Shown: positions 18,462-51,563 of the stretch, in pieces
Layout: the number at the start of each line of letters is the position of its first letter
How positions within the stretch are numbered: the first letter of the stretch is position 1
NCBI RefSeq assembly: GCF_005405285.1
Contig: NZ_BJDT01000001.1
Span: 406,726 to 470,725 of the forward strand
Length of the DNA: 64,000 nucleotides
Direction of reading: 5' to 3'
From: Weissella sagaensis
Lineage (GTDB): Bacteria > Bacillota > Bacilli > Lactobacillales > Lactobacillaceae
Notes under the pieces: model-generated
Seen by the model: the letters and a program-made list of their open reading frames with translations, nothing else
Database searches by the model: none
What the model was told of the DNA's origin: nothing
Translations under genes and position numbers: made by a program

Positions 18462-19838
18462 ATGCACGCATCTGTAAAAAACACGCTATTAGCAACTGCT
18501 GGGGCGGCAGCAGCATTGGCAGGAAGCTCAGTCGTAGCTTCTGCTGATTCTATTACCGTTAAATCTGGAGACACTCTATATGCTTTGGCAGCAGCCAATA
18601 ATGTATCAGTTGATGATTTAGTATCAGCTAACAAAATCGCTGATGCTAATTTGATTCATGTTGGTCAAAAGGTTGAATTGCCTGGTTCATCATCAGCACA
18701 ATCAGCTGCACCAGCAAAAGAAACAGCAACTAAGTCAGTTTCAAACAATGGTTCATATACTGTTAAAGCAGGAGATTCATTGTGGGCAATTGCTAATGCA
18801 AATGGTATGACTTTGTCTGAACTACTAAACGCTAACCCTGATTTACAAGCATCATCAGTTATCTATGTTGGTGATCAAATTAACTTCTCAAAGTCAGCTG
18901 TTGCTGTTAAACCAGCAGCATCACAAGCTGTATCAGAAGTAAACGTTAAGGCAACTGTACAACAATCAGCAGCAACATCAGCTGCAAATGCAAAGGCAAC
19001 TGCAGAGTCAGCCGCTGCACAACAATCAGCAGCAACATCAGCAGCAAATGCGAAGGTAGCTGCAGAGTCAGCCGCTGCACAACAATCAGCAGCAACGTCA
19101 GCAGCAAATGCGAAGGTAGCTGCAGAGTCAGCCGCCGCACAGTCAGCAGCAACATCAGCTGCAAATGCTAAGACAGTAGCAGAGTCAGCCGCTGCAGAAT
19201 CAGCAGCAACGTCAGCAGCAAATGCAAAGGCAGCCGCAGAATCAGCTGCTGCACAACAATCAGCAGCAACGTCAGCAGCAAATGCAAAGGCAGCCGCAGA
19301 ATCAGCTGCTGCACAACAATCAGCAGCAACGTCAGCAGCAAATGCAAAGGCAGCTGCAGAGTCAGCCGCTGCACAACAATCAGCAGCAACATCAGCAGCA
19401 AATGCAAAGGCAGCCGCAGAATCAGCAGCTGCAGCATCACAAGCCGCTGCACAACCACAACAAGTTGCAGCTACTACGACTGCAAAGCCTACATCAGTTG
19501 CATCAACAAATACAGCTGGAAACACATATCCATATGGACAATGCACATGGTTTGTTAAGGGTGATTTGGGCTGGGTTGGTAACTACTGGGGTAATGCTTC
19601 AGCATGGCCAGCATCAGCAGCAGCCGCTGGTCACACTGTAAATGGTACTGCCTCAGTTGGTGCCGTAGCATACTTTGCACCAGGTGTTGGTGGTGCTAGT
19701 GGTTATGGTCACGTTGCTGTTGTAGATTCTGTAAATGGTGATGGTACTATTACTATTTCAGAATCAAATTATGCAGGTAAATTGTACAATACTCGTACAA
19801 TTTCTACTTCATCAGTTTCAGGTTACATTCACCAATAA
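18462..19838 (+). CDS. Secreted LysM-CHAP peptidoglycan hydrolase with Ala-rich repeat linker
   Basis: A 458-residue secreted cell-wall enzyme. A signal peptide covers about residues 1-28 (VVASA cleavage region). Two LysM domains follow (about 32-71 and 95-140), which bind GlcNAc polymers. Residues 167-324 are eight tandem units of 19-20 residues rich in Ala, Ser and Gln. The C-terminal CHAP domain (about 345-458) has the catalytic Cys in YGQCTWFVKG and His in GYGHVAVVDS. CHAP amidases or endopeptidases cleave peptidoglycan peptides and often act in daughter-cell separation. The ATG follows AAGGAGT. An AT-rich region of 240 bp upstream has two TGTWA-type motifs whose spacing is not the standard WalR box. 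A terminator lies at 19859-19884. The related protein at 50184 has the same CHAP domain with one LysM. Confidence 0.93.
   Translation: MHASVKNTLLATAGAAAALAGSSVVASADSITVKSGDTLYALAAANNVSVDDLVSANKIADANLIHVGQKVELPGSSSAQSAAPAKETATKSVSNNGSYTVKAGDSLWAIANANGMTLSELLNANPDLQASSVIYVGDQINFSKSAVAVKPAASQAVSEVNVKATVQQSAATSAANAKATAESAAAQQSAATSAANAKVAAESAAAQQSAATSAANAKVAAESAAAQSAATSAANAKTVAESAAAESAATSAANAKAAAESAAAQQSAATSAANAKAAAESAAAQQSAATSAANAKAAAESAAAQQSAATSAANAKAAAESAAAASQAAAQPQQVAATTTAKPTSVASTNTAGNTYPYGQCTWFVKGDLGWVGNYWGNASAWPASAAAAGHTVNGTASVGAVAYFAPGVGGASGYGHVAVVDSVNGDGTITISESNYAGKLYNTRTISTSSVSGYIHQ
18960..19433 (+). repeat. Eight coding tandem repeats of 57-60 bp
   Basis: Each unit encodes QQSAATSAANAK plus a variable triplet and ESAAA. 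Six units have 20 residues and two have 19 (units 4 and 5). The blocks at 19201-19260 and 19261-19320 are identical over 60 bp, which points to recent unit duplication by slippage or recombination. Confidence 0.95.
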
Positions 19839-19858
19839 TAAAAAAGCTATTATTTAAG

Positions 19859-19884
19859 GAGACTCGCTTTCGAGTCTTTTTTTA
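19859..19884 (+). terminator. Terminator of the LysM-CHAP gene
   Basis: AGACTCG pairs with CGAGTCT across a CTTT loop, then seven T. It ends shortly before the next gene's ribosome binding site. Confidence 0.9.
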
Positions 19885-19910: not shown

Positions 19911-20453
19911 ATGCCTTTTAAAATAGAACCAGGACGAGTGATTCATTTTAATGATTATGAAGTTATTGATGCTGAGATATTATTCGAACCACCCTTAGCA
20001 GATAAGCCAGTTGAAATTACTGCTTCAACATTTGCTCGTAAAATGACGGGGGCACGTATACAAAGAACGATGTTGCAGATGATTATGGAAAGTTTGTGTG
20101 TTCCCTTAAGATCGGTGGTTAATGATGTTTTGGGTGTGCCTTATCAAAAAGAAGGTAATAGTCTGGAAAGTGGCTTTGACACAGCTGGCTTAATTCAATA
20201 TATTTTTAATCGCGTAGAAGGAATTGGCTTTCCAAATGAAATCAGTAATCAGATGAAAGCAGTGGCGCAATTGCCTATTAATGAAACACAACCGGGTGAC
20301 TTACTAGTCTGGGGGACTGCAGCTCTACCAACTACAGCTGGTATTTATATTGGTGGTGGTAAGTACATTACTGTTGATATGTTATCTGAAAAAGTTGTTA
20401 TAAAGTATATTTCACGAAAGTGGTTACCGGATTTTGTTGGTGCTATTCGATAG
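19911..20453 (+). CDS. NlpC/P60-like protein without catalytic residues
   Basis: A 180-residue cytoplasmic-looking protein; no signal peptide or membrane helix. Residues about 75-175 follow the NlpC/P60 pattern: VLGVPYQKEG..LESGFDTAGLIQYIF, then QPGDLLVW and AGIYIGGGKYI. In active members the block is FDCSGL and the later strand begins with HVGIYIG. Here the catalytic Cys is Thr (FDTAGL) and the His is replaced (TTAGIYIG), so it should not be a peptidase. The first 35 residues (EPGRVIHFND..VIDAEILFEP) match the start of the GNAT gene next door, in protein and DNA. The protein follows the LysM-CHAP terminator with its own ribosome binding site, AAGGAG. Its role is unknown. Confidence 0.7.
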   Translation: MPFKIEPGRVIHFNDYEVIDAEILFEPPLADKPVEITASTFARKMTGARIQRTMLQMIMESLCVPLRSVVNDVLGVPYQKEGNSLESGFDTAGLIQYIFNRVEGIGFPNEISNQMKAVAQLPINETQPGDLLVWGTAALPTTAGIYIGGGKYITVDMLSEKVVIKYISRKWLPDFVGAIR

Positions 20454-20509
20454 TTATTCTCAGCAATTAACATGAAATATTAGTTATAATAAGTAAGAGG
20501 AGGCTTAAT

Positions 20510-20788
20510 ATGAATTTTACGTATGAACCCGGTCGCCTGTTTCATGAAACAGATGGTATTGTCGATGCTGAGATATTATTCCCAGCTATTTTAGGAGGAA
20601 AGGTATGGTCAATTGATCATACCTATGTTGATCCTAGTTTGCGTGGGCAAGGGATTGCTGGTCAACTATTAGCCGAAGTTGTTAATCGTGCAAAAGAAGC
20701 TGATGTGCAGTTAAAGCCGGTTTGCACTTATGCACGCCAAGCTTTTTTTAGACACGAAGAATATCAAAAATTAGCTTATAAAGATTAA
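20510..20788 (+). CDS. Small GNAT N-acetyltransferase (YjdJ type)
   Basis: A 92-residue protein of the short GCN5-related family. The acetyl-CoA loop is seen in HTYVDPSLRGQGIAGQLLAEVVNRAKE, followed by the LKPVCTYARQAFFRHEEY C-terminal motif. Such proteins are near the minimal size for the fold; their substrates are unknown. It starts FTYEPGRLFHETDGIVDAEILFP, nearly the same as the N-terminus of the preceding gene, including an identical 18-bp DNA stretch. An AGGAGG ribosome binding site lies ahead of the ATG and a terminator follows. It may be co-transcribed with the NlpC-like gene, 57 bp upstream. Confidence 0.88.
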   Translation: MNFTYEPGRLFHETDGIVDAEILFPAILGGKVWSIDHTYVDPSLRGQGIAGQLLAEVVNRAKEADVQLKPVCTYARQAFFRHEEYQKLAYKD

Positions 20789-48973: not shown

Positions 48974-49942
48974 ATGGCTAAAGATAAATTAATCGGAATT
49001 GATTTAGGTGGTACAACCATTAAGTTTGCAATTATGACGGCTACAGGTGATATCCAACAAAAGTGGTCTATCAAGACAAACATTATGGATGAAGGTAGCC
49101 ATATTGTCCCTGATATTATTACTTCAATTAATTATCATTTAGATCTTTACCAATTAGATAAAGAACGCATTATTGGTGTGGGTATGGGAACACCAGGAAC
49201 TGTCGATGAAAAAACGGGTACAGTACAGGGTGCTTTTAATTTAAATTGGAAAGAACCACAACCTGTTAAAGCTGACTTAGAGGCCGGATTAGGATTTAGT
49301 GTTGCAATTGATAATGATGCTAATGCAGCTGCATTAGGTGAACAATGGCGTGGTGCTGGTAATAATCAACCGGAAGTTGTCTTTGTGACATTAGGTACCG
49401 GTGTTGGTGGTGGAATCGTTGATTCCGGTAAATTAGTTCATGGTGCTAAGGGTGCTGCAGGTGAAATCGGTCATATGATTGTTGAGCCAGGTGGTTACCT
49501 ATGTACTTGTGGTAACTATGGTTGTTTAGAACAGTATACATCAGCAACCGGAATTGTTCGTTTAGCGCATGATTATGCCGATGCATACGCTGGTGATTCA
49601 AAGCTAAAGTCAATGGTTGCCAATGGTGATGAGATCACATCAAAAATTGTCTTTGATTTAGCACAAACAGGTGATTACTTAGCTAATGAAGTTGTTGATA
49701 AGGTTTCATTTTACTTAGGATTGGCAACTGCTAATATTGCCAATATTTTAAATCCTTCAGCAATCGTTATTGGTGGTGGTGTGTCTGCTGCAGGTGATTT
49801 TTTGTTGAACAAGGTTAAGAAAAATTTCCAAGACTTTGCTTTCAAAATGACTCGTGATGTTACTGAAGTAAAGCTGGCTGAGTTGGGGAATGATGCAGGT
49901 GCATATGGTGCTGCTTCATTAGCGCTCCAAGCACAAGTTTAA
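48974..49942 (+). CDS. glk: ROK-family glucokinase
   Basis: A 322-residue ATP-dependent glucose kinase. The phosphate-binding motif DLGGTTIKFAI is at the N-terminus; the ROK signature and zinc cluster is GEIGHMIVEPGGYLCTCGNYGCLEQYTS. The catalytic Asp is in AIDNDANAAALGEQW. It feeds glucose taken up by non-PTS carriers such as the GRP-type protein at 32081 into glycolysis. It has its own promoter with a perfect cre site immediately upstream, and a terminator. Start: ATG after AAAGAGG. It stands behind yqgQ as in many Firmicutes. Confidence 0.95.
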   Translation: MAKDKLIGIDLGGTTIKFAIMTATGDIQQKWSIKTNIMDEGSHIVPDIITSINYHLDLYQLDKERIIGVGMGTPGTVDEKTGTVQGAFNLNWKEPQPVKADLEAGLGFSVAIDNDANAAALGEQWRGAGNNQPEVVFVTLGTGVGGGIVDSGKLVHGAKGAAGEIGHMIVEPGGYLCTCGNYGCLEQYTSATGIVRLAHDYADAYAGDSKLKSMVANGDEITSKIVFDLAQTGDYLANEVVDKVSFYLGLATANIANILNPSAIVIGGGVSAAGDFLLNKVKKNFQDFAFKMTRDVTEVKLAELGNDAGAYGAASLALQAQV

Positions 49943-49952
49943 TTAAAAAACA

Positions 49953-49993
49953 AAAATAATTTGTAACAATATGTTACAAATTATTTTTTTGTT
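49953..49993 (+). terminator. glk terminator
   Basis: AAATAATTTGTAAC pairs with GTTACAAATTATTT and is followed by TTTT. Confidence 0.93.
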
Positions 49994-50106
49994 TTTAATG
50001 ATATTAGGTAAATTAAACGAATAATGCGTTTTATAGTGTGTTTTAAGTGATTAATTAAGAATTCGCATCATAAATCCTAAGTTTTTATTAAAAATTGTTA
50101 TACCAA

Positions 50107-50139
50107 TGTAACTTGTATGTTAAATCCAATTGATATAAT
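50107..50139 (+). promoter_or_regulatory. WalR-type box and promoter of the second LysM-CHAP gene
   Basis: TGTAAC-N5-TGTTAA (50107-50123) matches the WalR direct repeat TGTWAH-N5-TGTWAH. It overlaps the -35 position of an extended -10 TGATATAAT (50131-50139). WalRK controls wall hydrolases in Firmicutes. Confidence 0.75.
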
Positions 50140-50183
50140 TCTTGTATCTTTCAGAGAGTAATTACATTCAAGGGGAATAAATA

Positions 50184-51011
50184 ATGACTTTAAATGCACA
50201 ACGTTCAAACAAAAACTGGCTGGTAGCAGCTGCTACTGTAGCTGCCGCAGCTATTTTACCAATGACACAAACATCAACTGTGTCAGCAGATGACACAAAA
50301 GATAATGGTGATAGCCACACTTCTTGGCGTGCTAAGACTGTTGAGGATGTTAAGTCAGTTTTGTTAACAGCTGGTAAAGAATACCAAGTACAATCAGGTG
50401 ATACACTTTCAACAATTTCAGAAGCAACTGGTGAATCAGTTGATGATATTGCGGCTGCCAATGGTGTGTCAGATATTCACATGATTAGTGTTGGTGAAGT
50501 TTTGAAGTTGGACGTTGATGGTGCTGATAAGGCTATGACATCACAATCAGCTGAAGTTCAAAAACCAGTAGCTCAGGCTACACCTCAAACACAAGCTGTA
50601 GAGACACCACAAGCAACACAACCAGTTGCAGAAAAAACAGTAATGACAACGCAAGCTGTAGCACCAGAAAAGGTGGCAGCACCAACATATAATACAGCAG
50701 GTAACTCTTATCCAGCTGGTCAATGTACATGGTTTGTAAAGAATGCGCTATCATGGGTTGGTAACAACTGGGGAAATGCATCAGGATGGGCTTCATCTGC
50801 TGCTGCTGCTGGTCGTGTTGTTAATGGACAACCTGCAGTAGGTTCTGTTGTTGTATTTGCCCCAGGTGAGCTAGGTGCTGGTGCATTAGGTCACGTTGCT
50901 GTTGTTGATGCAGTTAATGGTAACTCAGTTTCAATTTCAGAAGGTAATTATGCTGGTATGGCATACCACACTCGTACAATCTCAGCTTCTGGTTTGACGT
51001 TTATTCACTAA
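50184..51011 (+). CDS. Secreted LysM-CHAP peptidoglycan hydrolase, short form
   Basis: A 275-residue secreted wall hydrolase. An atypically basic N-terminus (MTLNAQRSNKNW) leads into a signal peptide ending near VSA (about residue 35). One LysM domain follows (about 68-112; YQVQSGDTLSTISEATGESVDDIAAANG). A Thr/Gln/Ala/Pro linker precedes the C-terminal CHAP domain (about 170-275), with Cys in AGQCTWFVKN and His in LGHVAVVDA. The CHAP domain is very similar to that at 18462 while the linker is short and repeat-free. The upstream WalR-type box suggests WalRK control. The ATG follows AGGGG. Confidence 0.93.
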   Translation: MTLNAQRSNKNWLVAAATVAAAAILPMTQTSTVSADDTKDNGDSHTSWRAKTVEDVKSVLLTAGKEYQVQSGDTLSTISEATGESVDDIAAANGVSDIHMISVGEVLKLDVDGADKAMTSQSAEVQKPVAQATPQTQAVETPQATQPVAEKTVMTTQAVAPEKVAAPTYNTAGNSYPAGQCTWFVKNALSWVGNNWGNASGWASSAAAAGRVVNGQPAVGSVVVFAPGELGAGALGHVAVVDAVNGNSVSISEGNYAGMAYHTRTISASGLTFIH

Positions 51012-51030
51012 TTAATAGATGAAAAAGCAT

Positions 51031-51071
51031 TTTCAGAGATTATGACATTATGTCGTAACCTCTGTTTTTTA
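51031..51071 (+). terminator. Terminator of the second LysM-CHAP gene
   Basis: CAGAG-TTA-GACAT pairs with ATGTC-TAA-CTCTG with two small bulges, followed by six T. Confidence 0.85.
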
Positions 51072-51173
51072 ATTTTAAATAAATACGCATGAATTCTTGT
51101 TTTTTCAAAGATTTATGACGTGAATTTTGGTATGATATTAGAAGGATTGTATTAAGAAACGGGGAATTAAAGT

Positions 51174-51563
51174 ATGTGGATAACGTTATTTGTAATTATT
51201 TTGATTTGGTTATTGTGGATGGTCGGTAGTCGTATCTGGACTAATAGATTACTAAAGCAGTCGGCAACAGTATTATCAAGTGAAGATTTTGAAGCACAAA
51301 GTCATGGCCATGATATTGTTGATATTCGAGAACCAGCTAAGTTCAAATCAAAGCACATCTTTGGTGCCCGAAACATTCAATATATGTTATTAAAAGAAAA
51401 CCATGCAGCGTTACGTAAAGACAAGCCAGTCTTTCTTTACGATGAGAATGGCCAATTTGTTGCCCGTATTGCTAAGGTTTTGCACAAAGATGGTTACAAC
51501 CAAGTAAATGTATTGAAAGGTGGTTTCAATACTTACAAGGGGAAAGTAAAGTCAAACCAATAA
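51174..51563 (+). CDS. Membrane-anchored rhodanese-like protein lacking the catalytic Cys
   Basis: A 129-residue protein. One N-terminal membrane helix (about 3-23) is followed by a rhodanese fold (DIVDIREPAKFKSKHIFGARNIQYM, then GYNQVNVLKGGFNTYKG). The catalytic loop, normally CxxGxRS, reads YDENGQFVAR, so Asp replaces the cysteine. It is therefore not a sulfurtransferase and could be a binding or scaffold module (inference). Such genes commonly sit near glk-yqgQ in lactic acid bacteria. It has its own promoter region and a shared hairpin downstream with the DUF3042 gene. Confidence 0.88.
   Translation: MWITLFVIILIWLLWMVGSRIWTNRLLKQSATVLSSEDFEAQSHGHDIVDIREPAKFKSKHIFGARNIQYMLLKENHAALRKDKPVFLYDENGQFVARIAKVLHKDGYNQVNVLKGGFNTYKGKVKSNQ

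Follow-up and report, generated by a model that had tools for sequence, protein, structure and literature searches.

Among proteins with an NlpC/P60 domain, SagA is an exported, active endopeptidase. In RipA the Asp that precedes the catalytic Cys contacts D-Glu, and of all contacts it is the most conserved (PMC6628586), while RipD, a non-catalytic NlpC/P60 protein whose catalytic residues are lost, is reported to be a peptidoglycan binder (PMC12067865). For the small GNAT acetyltransferases, the accessible portion of the one paper retrieved mentions yjdJ only in strain lists (PMC6199490). No paper joining NlpC/P60 with GNAT as fusion, half domain or pseudoenzyme was found in the open-licence PMC literature, and the literature on NlpC proteins of Weissella, judged by title or abstract start, held nothing on the protein described here. 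This protein is a Weissella chimera of two disabled enzyme parts which is real, old and conserved in most of the genus.

The chimera was found in W. sagaensis, in a stretch of 64,000 nucleotides that was analyzed as a whole (the window). Its gene (19911-20453, plus strand; 180 aa) is an open reading frame whose homologues span the full length in 23 of 28 genus members, and joins two parts: an N-terminal half-GNAT module (residues 1-64, 19911-20102), comprising strands, a former acetyl-CoA loop and a helix and delimited by hhalign with controls and by AlphaFold2 (AF2), and a putatively dead NlpC/P60-like domain (residues 75-177, 20133-20441), recognized via Pfam NLPC_P60 (E 2.7e-15) and via comparison of the AF2 model with NlpC/P60 structures. 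On the same strand, positions 20510-20788 encode a complete small GNAT acetyltransferase of the Acetyltransf_CG/YjdJ type (92 aa; Pfam PF14542, E 2e-19; AF2 model compared with 5i0c). Both coding sequences thus lie where the original prediction had placed them, and the 18-mer which it had reported, GATGCTGAGATATTATTC (encoding DAEILF), was found exactly at 19968-19985 and 20564-20581 of the plus strand; in shuffles of the window a mean of 0.02 matches to the 18-mer is expected at up to three mismatches. Upstream of the fusion gene is a LysM-CHAP wall hydrolase gene (18462-19838, plus strand; Pfam LysM and CHAP, synteny), and between the two is a terminator-like hairpin (19856-19881, plus strand) detected by consensus scan only. 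Between its LysM and CHAP domains, this protein has a long repeat region rich in alanine, serine and glutamine (units resembling AAAESAAAQQSAATSAANAK), and a related gene that encodes LysM-like and CHAP-like regions is located at 50184-51011.

The two neighboring proteins start alike, the NlpC-like one with MPFKIEPGRVIHFNDYEVIDAEILFEP and the GNAT with MNFTYEPGRLFHETDG-IVDAEILFPA. BLASTP of the fusion protein against the GNAT aligned residues 1-59 (20/59 identical, E 9e-7). Moreover, when profiles from separate alignments of 21 NlpC-like homologues and 29 GNAT homologues were compared with hhalign, columns 1-64 fell on columns 1-64 (probability 98.1, E 7e-14). In the controls the real N-terminal half reached E 2e-16, while the best of 100 column-shuffled versions reached E 0.007 and the reversed one E 0.17. 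The similarity is therefore real homology, as the profile E is far below those of the shuffled controls. The signal was concentrated in columns 1-26 (E 4e-14); columns 27-66 alone gave E 7e-4, in the same register. Thus, although the motif noted earlier holds most of the signal, the profile alignment and its controls show that the module reaches beyond it: the proposal of a homologous N-terminal module common to the neighboring NlpC-like and GNAT genes stands, with a module of ~64 residues that is ~2.5 times longer than proposed. Chance resemblance of a short motif, to which the confinement of the strongest signal to 26 columns might point, has a negligible probability: it is contradicted by the distance between the profile E and those of the shuffled and reversed controls, by searches in which each family picked up the other in several genomes, and by a PDB search with the NlpC profile in which YjdJ (5i0c) was the sole acetyltransferase drawn (residues 13-70 in register, E 0.11). 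Nor is the N-terminus of the NlpC-like gene unrelated in most relatives, the module being present in 23 of the 28 genus members.

Structural models located the point at which the GNAT fold is broken off. The downstream GNAT matched PF14542 with 70 bits (gathering score 30), and its AF2 model (mean pLDDT 93.4) superposed on 5i0c YjdJ with a TM of 0.91 and an rmsd of 1.2. In the AF2 model of the fusion protein (mean pLDDT 89.6), the N-terminal half has strands at residues 3-6, 9-13, 19-26 and 35-41 and a helix at 47-62, and the GNAT has strands at 4-6, 9-14, 17-23, 32-35 and 37-40 and a helix at 49-63; the secondary structures agree within a few residues when a one-residue gap is counted. As modeled, the module covers a YjdJ-type GNAT domain from its start to the helix past the acetyl-CoA loop, and is followed by the NlpC/P60 domain. 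The acetyl-CoA loop motif [RQ]GxGxA was present in 28 of 28 GNATs versus none of 23 fusion proteins; at the former loop site (residues 46-51; 20046-20063, plus strand) the fusion protein reads TGARIQ and the GNAT RGQGIA. A Pfam GNAT match was absent from all 21 fusion-family members searched, so that the homology emerges only from comparison with the neighboring GNAT family. With the loop motif in 0/23 and the Pfam GNAT match in 0/21, the module is a derivative of the GNAT family and not a working member of it, while the downstream protein, its motif intact in 28/28, is a predicted acetyltransferase. Genome G017 has a second, diverged GNAT of YjdJ type away from the fusion locus (L058, G017:C33).

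In the NlpC/P60 part, the fold was kept and the catalytic residues were lost. The part scored 56.7 bits against PF00877 (gathering score 23), with a match in 21/21 members, and its AF2 model was closest to 6b8c (Z 18.2 over 114 residues, rmsd 1.9). The (F/Y)D pair was kept in 23/23 copies, while the catalytic Cys that follows it was found in 0/23, being replaced by T, A, V, L or I; in the window the site reads GFDT, the codons of Asp90-Thr91 (20178-20183, plus strand) retaining the conserved Asp and replacing the Cys. The catalytic His expected at positions 141-143, just before the (V/A)-(G/A)-x-Y strand, was found in 0/21; the diverged copy of G018, which like that of G017 is outside these 21, carries a His displaced by one residue towards the N-terminus (letters read by eye). 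To judge by these residues the NlpC part is catalytically dead. In a comparison with phage families (PHROGs) the matches covered residues 68-180 only, i.e., the common NlpC domain, and a phage origin of this part was rejected on that ground. A promoter-like site (TTGACA-17-TATATT, 11/12) is located at 20176-20204, inside the NlpC part and over the former active-site codons; the frequency of such sites in the window was no higher than in shuffles.

The fusion was full-length in 21 of the 28 genus genomes, and two further, strongly diverged full-length copies (G017 and G018) complete the 23. Outside the genus, several searches were made: i) in a collection of 84,980 species, scanned non-exhaustively with two short patterns in the NlpC part, the matches over residues 1-180 were 15 Weissella records and one Lactobacillaceae MAG; ii) in 397 genomes of the family, the genus itself included, among the matches listed, those from other genera started at residue 18 or later, most of them at residue 59 or beyond; iii) in 295 genomes of the order (E 1e-24), of the five matches listed, three were full-length and came from the genus, and two, from outside it, covered the NlpC part only (from residues 63 and 74); iv) of eight regions chosen for small NlpC proteins of other genera, seven yielded such reading frames under the filter used and one (L155) yielded none, and among the proteins obtained none had a GNAT-like start, and most had, by eye, a signal-peptide-like one. 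The one near-full match, in Thomasclavelia (residues 5-180), was discarded, as it belongs to a lengthy repeat-containing protein whose site reads FDCSG (letters read by eye). As far as searched and among the matches listed, the fusion is genus-specific, though a strongly diverged one in other genera could have escaped the family and order lists, which end at an E-value cut-off.

Five genus members (G004, G009, G014, G015 and G022) have no fusion gene, and all five keep the GNAT. The distance from Clp to GNAT was 104-173 bp in these genomes versus 1488-2351 bp in the 16 fusion genomes measured (window included), and in the fusion genomes inspected the longer interval held a LysM-CHAP-type gene and the fusion gene. 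Most of the inspected fusion genomes had such a LysM-CHAP-type gene upstream of the fusion, and the five fusion-free genomes lacked it at the locus; as exceptions, the upstream hydrolase of G021 was not resolved, and the W. cibaria/confusa records have no Clp at the locus. In the fusion-free genomes the GNAT is followed by Dut and RadA where the contig reaches (that of G022 ends earlier). At the loci of G004 and G015 that match window positions 48974-51563 (L136 and L137), the place of the second LysM-CHAP-like gene is taken by a gene whose product combines LysM, repeats and an NlpC/P60 domain, and this domain retains Cys and His in these two fusion-free genomes (LDCSG, HVGIYLG). In G009, RadA is covered by two overlapping reading frames (L131:8806-10185) and matches from residue 84 only, a possible frameshift or sequencing error.

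In a quick tree of RadA, Clp and Dut from 27 genus members and 29 others, built without bootstrap, the five fusion-free genomes formed one clade (99), sister to the fusion-bearing G020 and G021. As they form a single clade beside fusion carriers, one gain followed by one later loss is the shortest account, and one old fusion with one later loss fits best. The GNATs of the W. viridescens group (L054-L057; G016, G027, G026 and G025) stood apart from most other Weissella GNATs in a free tree of full GNATs, and a tree forcing all Weissella GNATs together was not worse than the free one (p-AU 0.68); replacement of the GNAT of this group from another genus is possible.

The direction of the copying was read from other genera. 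EPGR occurred at the same place in 14 of 26 GNATs from other Lactobacillaceae genera (counted by eye), and a Dut gene was present on 22 of the 27 loci; none of the NlpC proteins examined outside the genus begins like the module. Thus the GNAT is the likely donor, as the EPGR start recurs outside the genus in GNATs and not in the NlpC proteins examined there. In a tree of the N-terminal modules, the 23 NlpC and 28 GNAT halves were on opposite sides of one branch (100/98; 200/200 bootstrap trees), a tree which rests on 67 columns and in which long branches meet at the dividing branch. The phylogeny of the 5' ends therefore runs against the expectation that they group with each other: they group with their own gene families. 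Of the duplication first proposed, what stands is that the module arose by duplication; the recent event of ~60 bp falls, given this separation by family. In the scenario that we favor, codons 1 to ~64 of the local YjdJ-type GNAT gene, its 5' half, would have joined an NlpC/P60 domain in an ancestor of the sampled Weissella, yielding a new gene immediately upstream of the intact GNAT gene. A tandem duplication whose breaks fell close to GNAT codon 64 and ahead of an NlpC domain lying upstream could have formed the junction, and both parts would afterwards have lost their enzyme signatures, i.e., the acetyl-CoA loop on one side and the catalytic Cys and His on the other. We regard this origin of the fusion and the double loss of enzyme signatures as very probable.

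The identity of the 18-mer raised gene conversion as a rival, either as one recent ~60 bp event in the W. sagaensis strain or as repeated exchanges of less than 20 bp in several lineages. In its favor are the identity of 18 bases, among whose codons are less common ones (GAG 0.21, ATA 0.08, TTC 0.22), and, in the window pair, the use of the same codon at 13 of 18 shared residues where 9.3 are expected. However, given DAEILF in both proteins, six identical codons have a probability of 0.021 under window codon usage (smaller for these partly rare codons), which makes the exact identity less special. Moreover, at P7, G8 and R9 the two window genes encode the same residue with different codons. 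The 18-mer was exact only in the window, the sister genome G013 having 17/18 (NlpC) and 16/18 (GNAT) and G001 having 16 and 15; as the NlpC copy of G013 already stands at 17/18, the last step in the NlpC copy was one synonymous change from GAA to GAG. A recent 60-bp conversion was rejected by these codon differences, by the module tree and by the 18-mer in every genome.

Exchange of shorter tracts was weighed by codon identity at the shared residues over 23 genomes, which was 166/304 (0.546) within genomes versus 3454/7164 between genomes, the permuted pairings averaging 0.485 and reaching the within-genome value in 10 of 5000 cases; for the six nearest genomes it was 0.604 versus 0.515 permuted (2/720 as high). 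In the codon-bias control on the 3' parts it was 0.446 within versus 0.413 between genomes. The excess was located in the DAEILF columns (63/90; permuted mean 0.54, 0/5000 as high). With these columns removed no excess was left over the 23 genomes (1289/5000), while the six nearest still showed some (13/720). Yet with one genome per near group the DAEILF columns gave 31/45, which 123 of 5000 permutations equaled, and each genome's own codon usage already predicts 53.7/90 against the 63 observed (26.9/45 against 31 for 13 genomes), so that a common codon bias may explain some of the excess. Exchange of tracts shorter than 20 bp around DAEILF is thus a weak possibility on these codon counts, and gene conversion in either form appears distinctly unlikely.

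The fusion protein is under purifying selection. Its dN/dS was 0.00-0.18 for the module (10 pairs) and 0.02-0.17 for the NlpC part (nine pairs with usable dS) in 14 of the 23 genomes, rough values by Nei-Gojobori with several dS above 1 and one saturated, and none of the 23 copies has an internal stop. These values and the intact frames contradict the notion that the gene is a decaying relic without function, which could appeal to the missing catalytic residues and to the loss of the gene in one clade and which we hold to be highly improbable.

The fusion and GNAT genes are close neighbors, with a gap of 1-56 nt in all 22 genomes measured and of at most 21 nt in 15, in which cotranscription is likely. 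All seven longer gaps contain a TATAAT box, so the GNAT may have a separate promoter in those genomes. In the window, the gap (20454-20509) has a GTTATAAT box shared with the six nearest relatives (G000, G001, G010, G013, G019 and G023), and the gap of G003 also has TATAAT. Such proximity would suit a half-GNAT that serves as a docking module for the neighboring full GNAT, by strand exchange or as a mixed dimer, with the dead NlpC protein as an accessory or regulatory subunit. The five genomes in which the GNAT persists without the fusion are what an accessory would predict, the module is under purifying selection, and a truncated GNAT fold would probably leave an open strand edge. However, the distances of the module followed its own NlpC domain (partial r 0.83 with species signal removed; 0/2000 permutations as high) and not the GNAT (partial r -0.04; 1089/2000 as high), while the control Dut gave 0.37 with the module. 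The test against the GNAT is weak: it covers 19 genomes, the module distances approach saturation, and the GNATs of one group may have been replaced. The module and the NlpC domain evolve as one unit, and the earlier idea of a dimerisation element found no support in these correlations. As the possible GNAT promoters in the seven longer gaps also speak against it, we consider docking rather unlikely. A still more elaborate version, in which the dead NlpC/P60 domain would act as a cytosolic sensor of wall-precursor peptides and the half-GNAT, plugged into the intact GNAT, would let precursor status control the acetyltransferase, is quite improbable.

A stand-alone binding protein is favored over docking, as the distance correlation weighs against a tight contact between module and GNAT. 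No export signal was visible by eye in the fusion protein, which probably stays in the cytosol on that account. There it may bind, RipD-like, a D-Glu-containing cell-wall peptide or precursor via the retained pocket, in which Asp90 is kept and the nucleophile is lost; the half-GNAT would cap the N-terminus structurally, without acting as an acetyltransferase. Selection would have favored losing the nucleophile, because wall precursors would be cut by a DL-endopeptidase active in the cytosol. The Asp retained in 23/23 copies hints at binding of peptidoglycan or muropeptides, though folding may be the sole reason why the FD pair persists, and a peptide-binding function, drawn by analogy, is put forward only tentatively. 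Overall, an old fusion of half a GNAT with an NlpC/P60 domain, now a RipD-like non-catalytic binding protein, is the best explanation and, in our judgment, a moderately probable one.

The locus provides a single-origin case in which a new protein was made from half of a neighboring enzyme and a second enzyme domain, lost both activity signatures and was then conserved in most of the genus, and it allows direct comparison of genomes with and without the fusion. If the NlpC part does bind wall peptides in the cytosol, the RipD type of dead NlpC/P60 domain would gain an intracellular role; if the half-GNAT does plug into the GNAT, the product would be a regulator assembled from two inactivated enzyme parts, one of them a partial copy of its own partner.

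Compared with the known systems, the fusion protein resembles each of them in part. The downstream gene is a full member of the YjdJ/At1g77540 small GNATs (PF14542 Acetyltransf_CG; PDB 5i0c and 1xmt), whereas the module corresponds in register to their first two thirds and lacks the acetyl-CoA loop, the region around the conserved Cys and the fold's second part. The NlpC/P60 domain of SagA (6b8c) is the best match of the NlpC part both in structure (the Z of 18.2 given above) and in sequence (E 1e-16), but in the alignment it retains Cys and His, unlike the fusion protein. RipD (Rv1566c of mycobacteria; PDB 4jxb and 4lj1) shares with the fusion protein an NlpC/P60 fold with replaced catalytic residues, 4jxb aligning with the AF2 model at Z 14.8 and rmsd 2.3 over 113 residues. 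RipD, as described, is a secreted protein with a tail of pentapeptide repeats at its C-terminus and apparently no GNAT part, whereas the fusion protein is apparently not secreted. As many active NlpC/P60 domains match the NlpC part as well or better, the likeness to RipD is one of state and not of special kinship.
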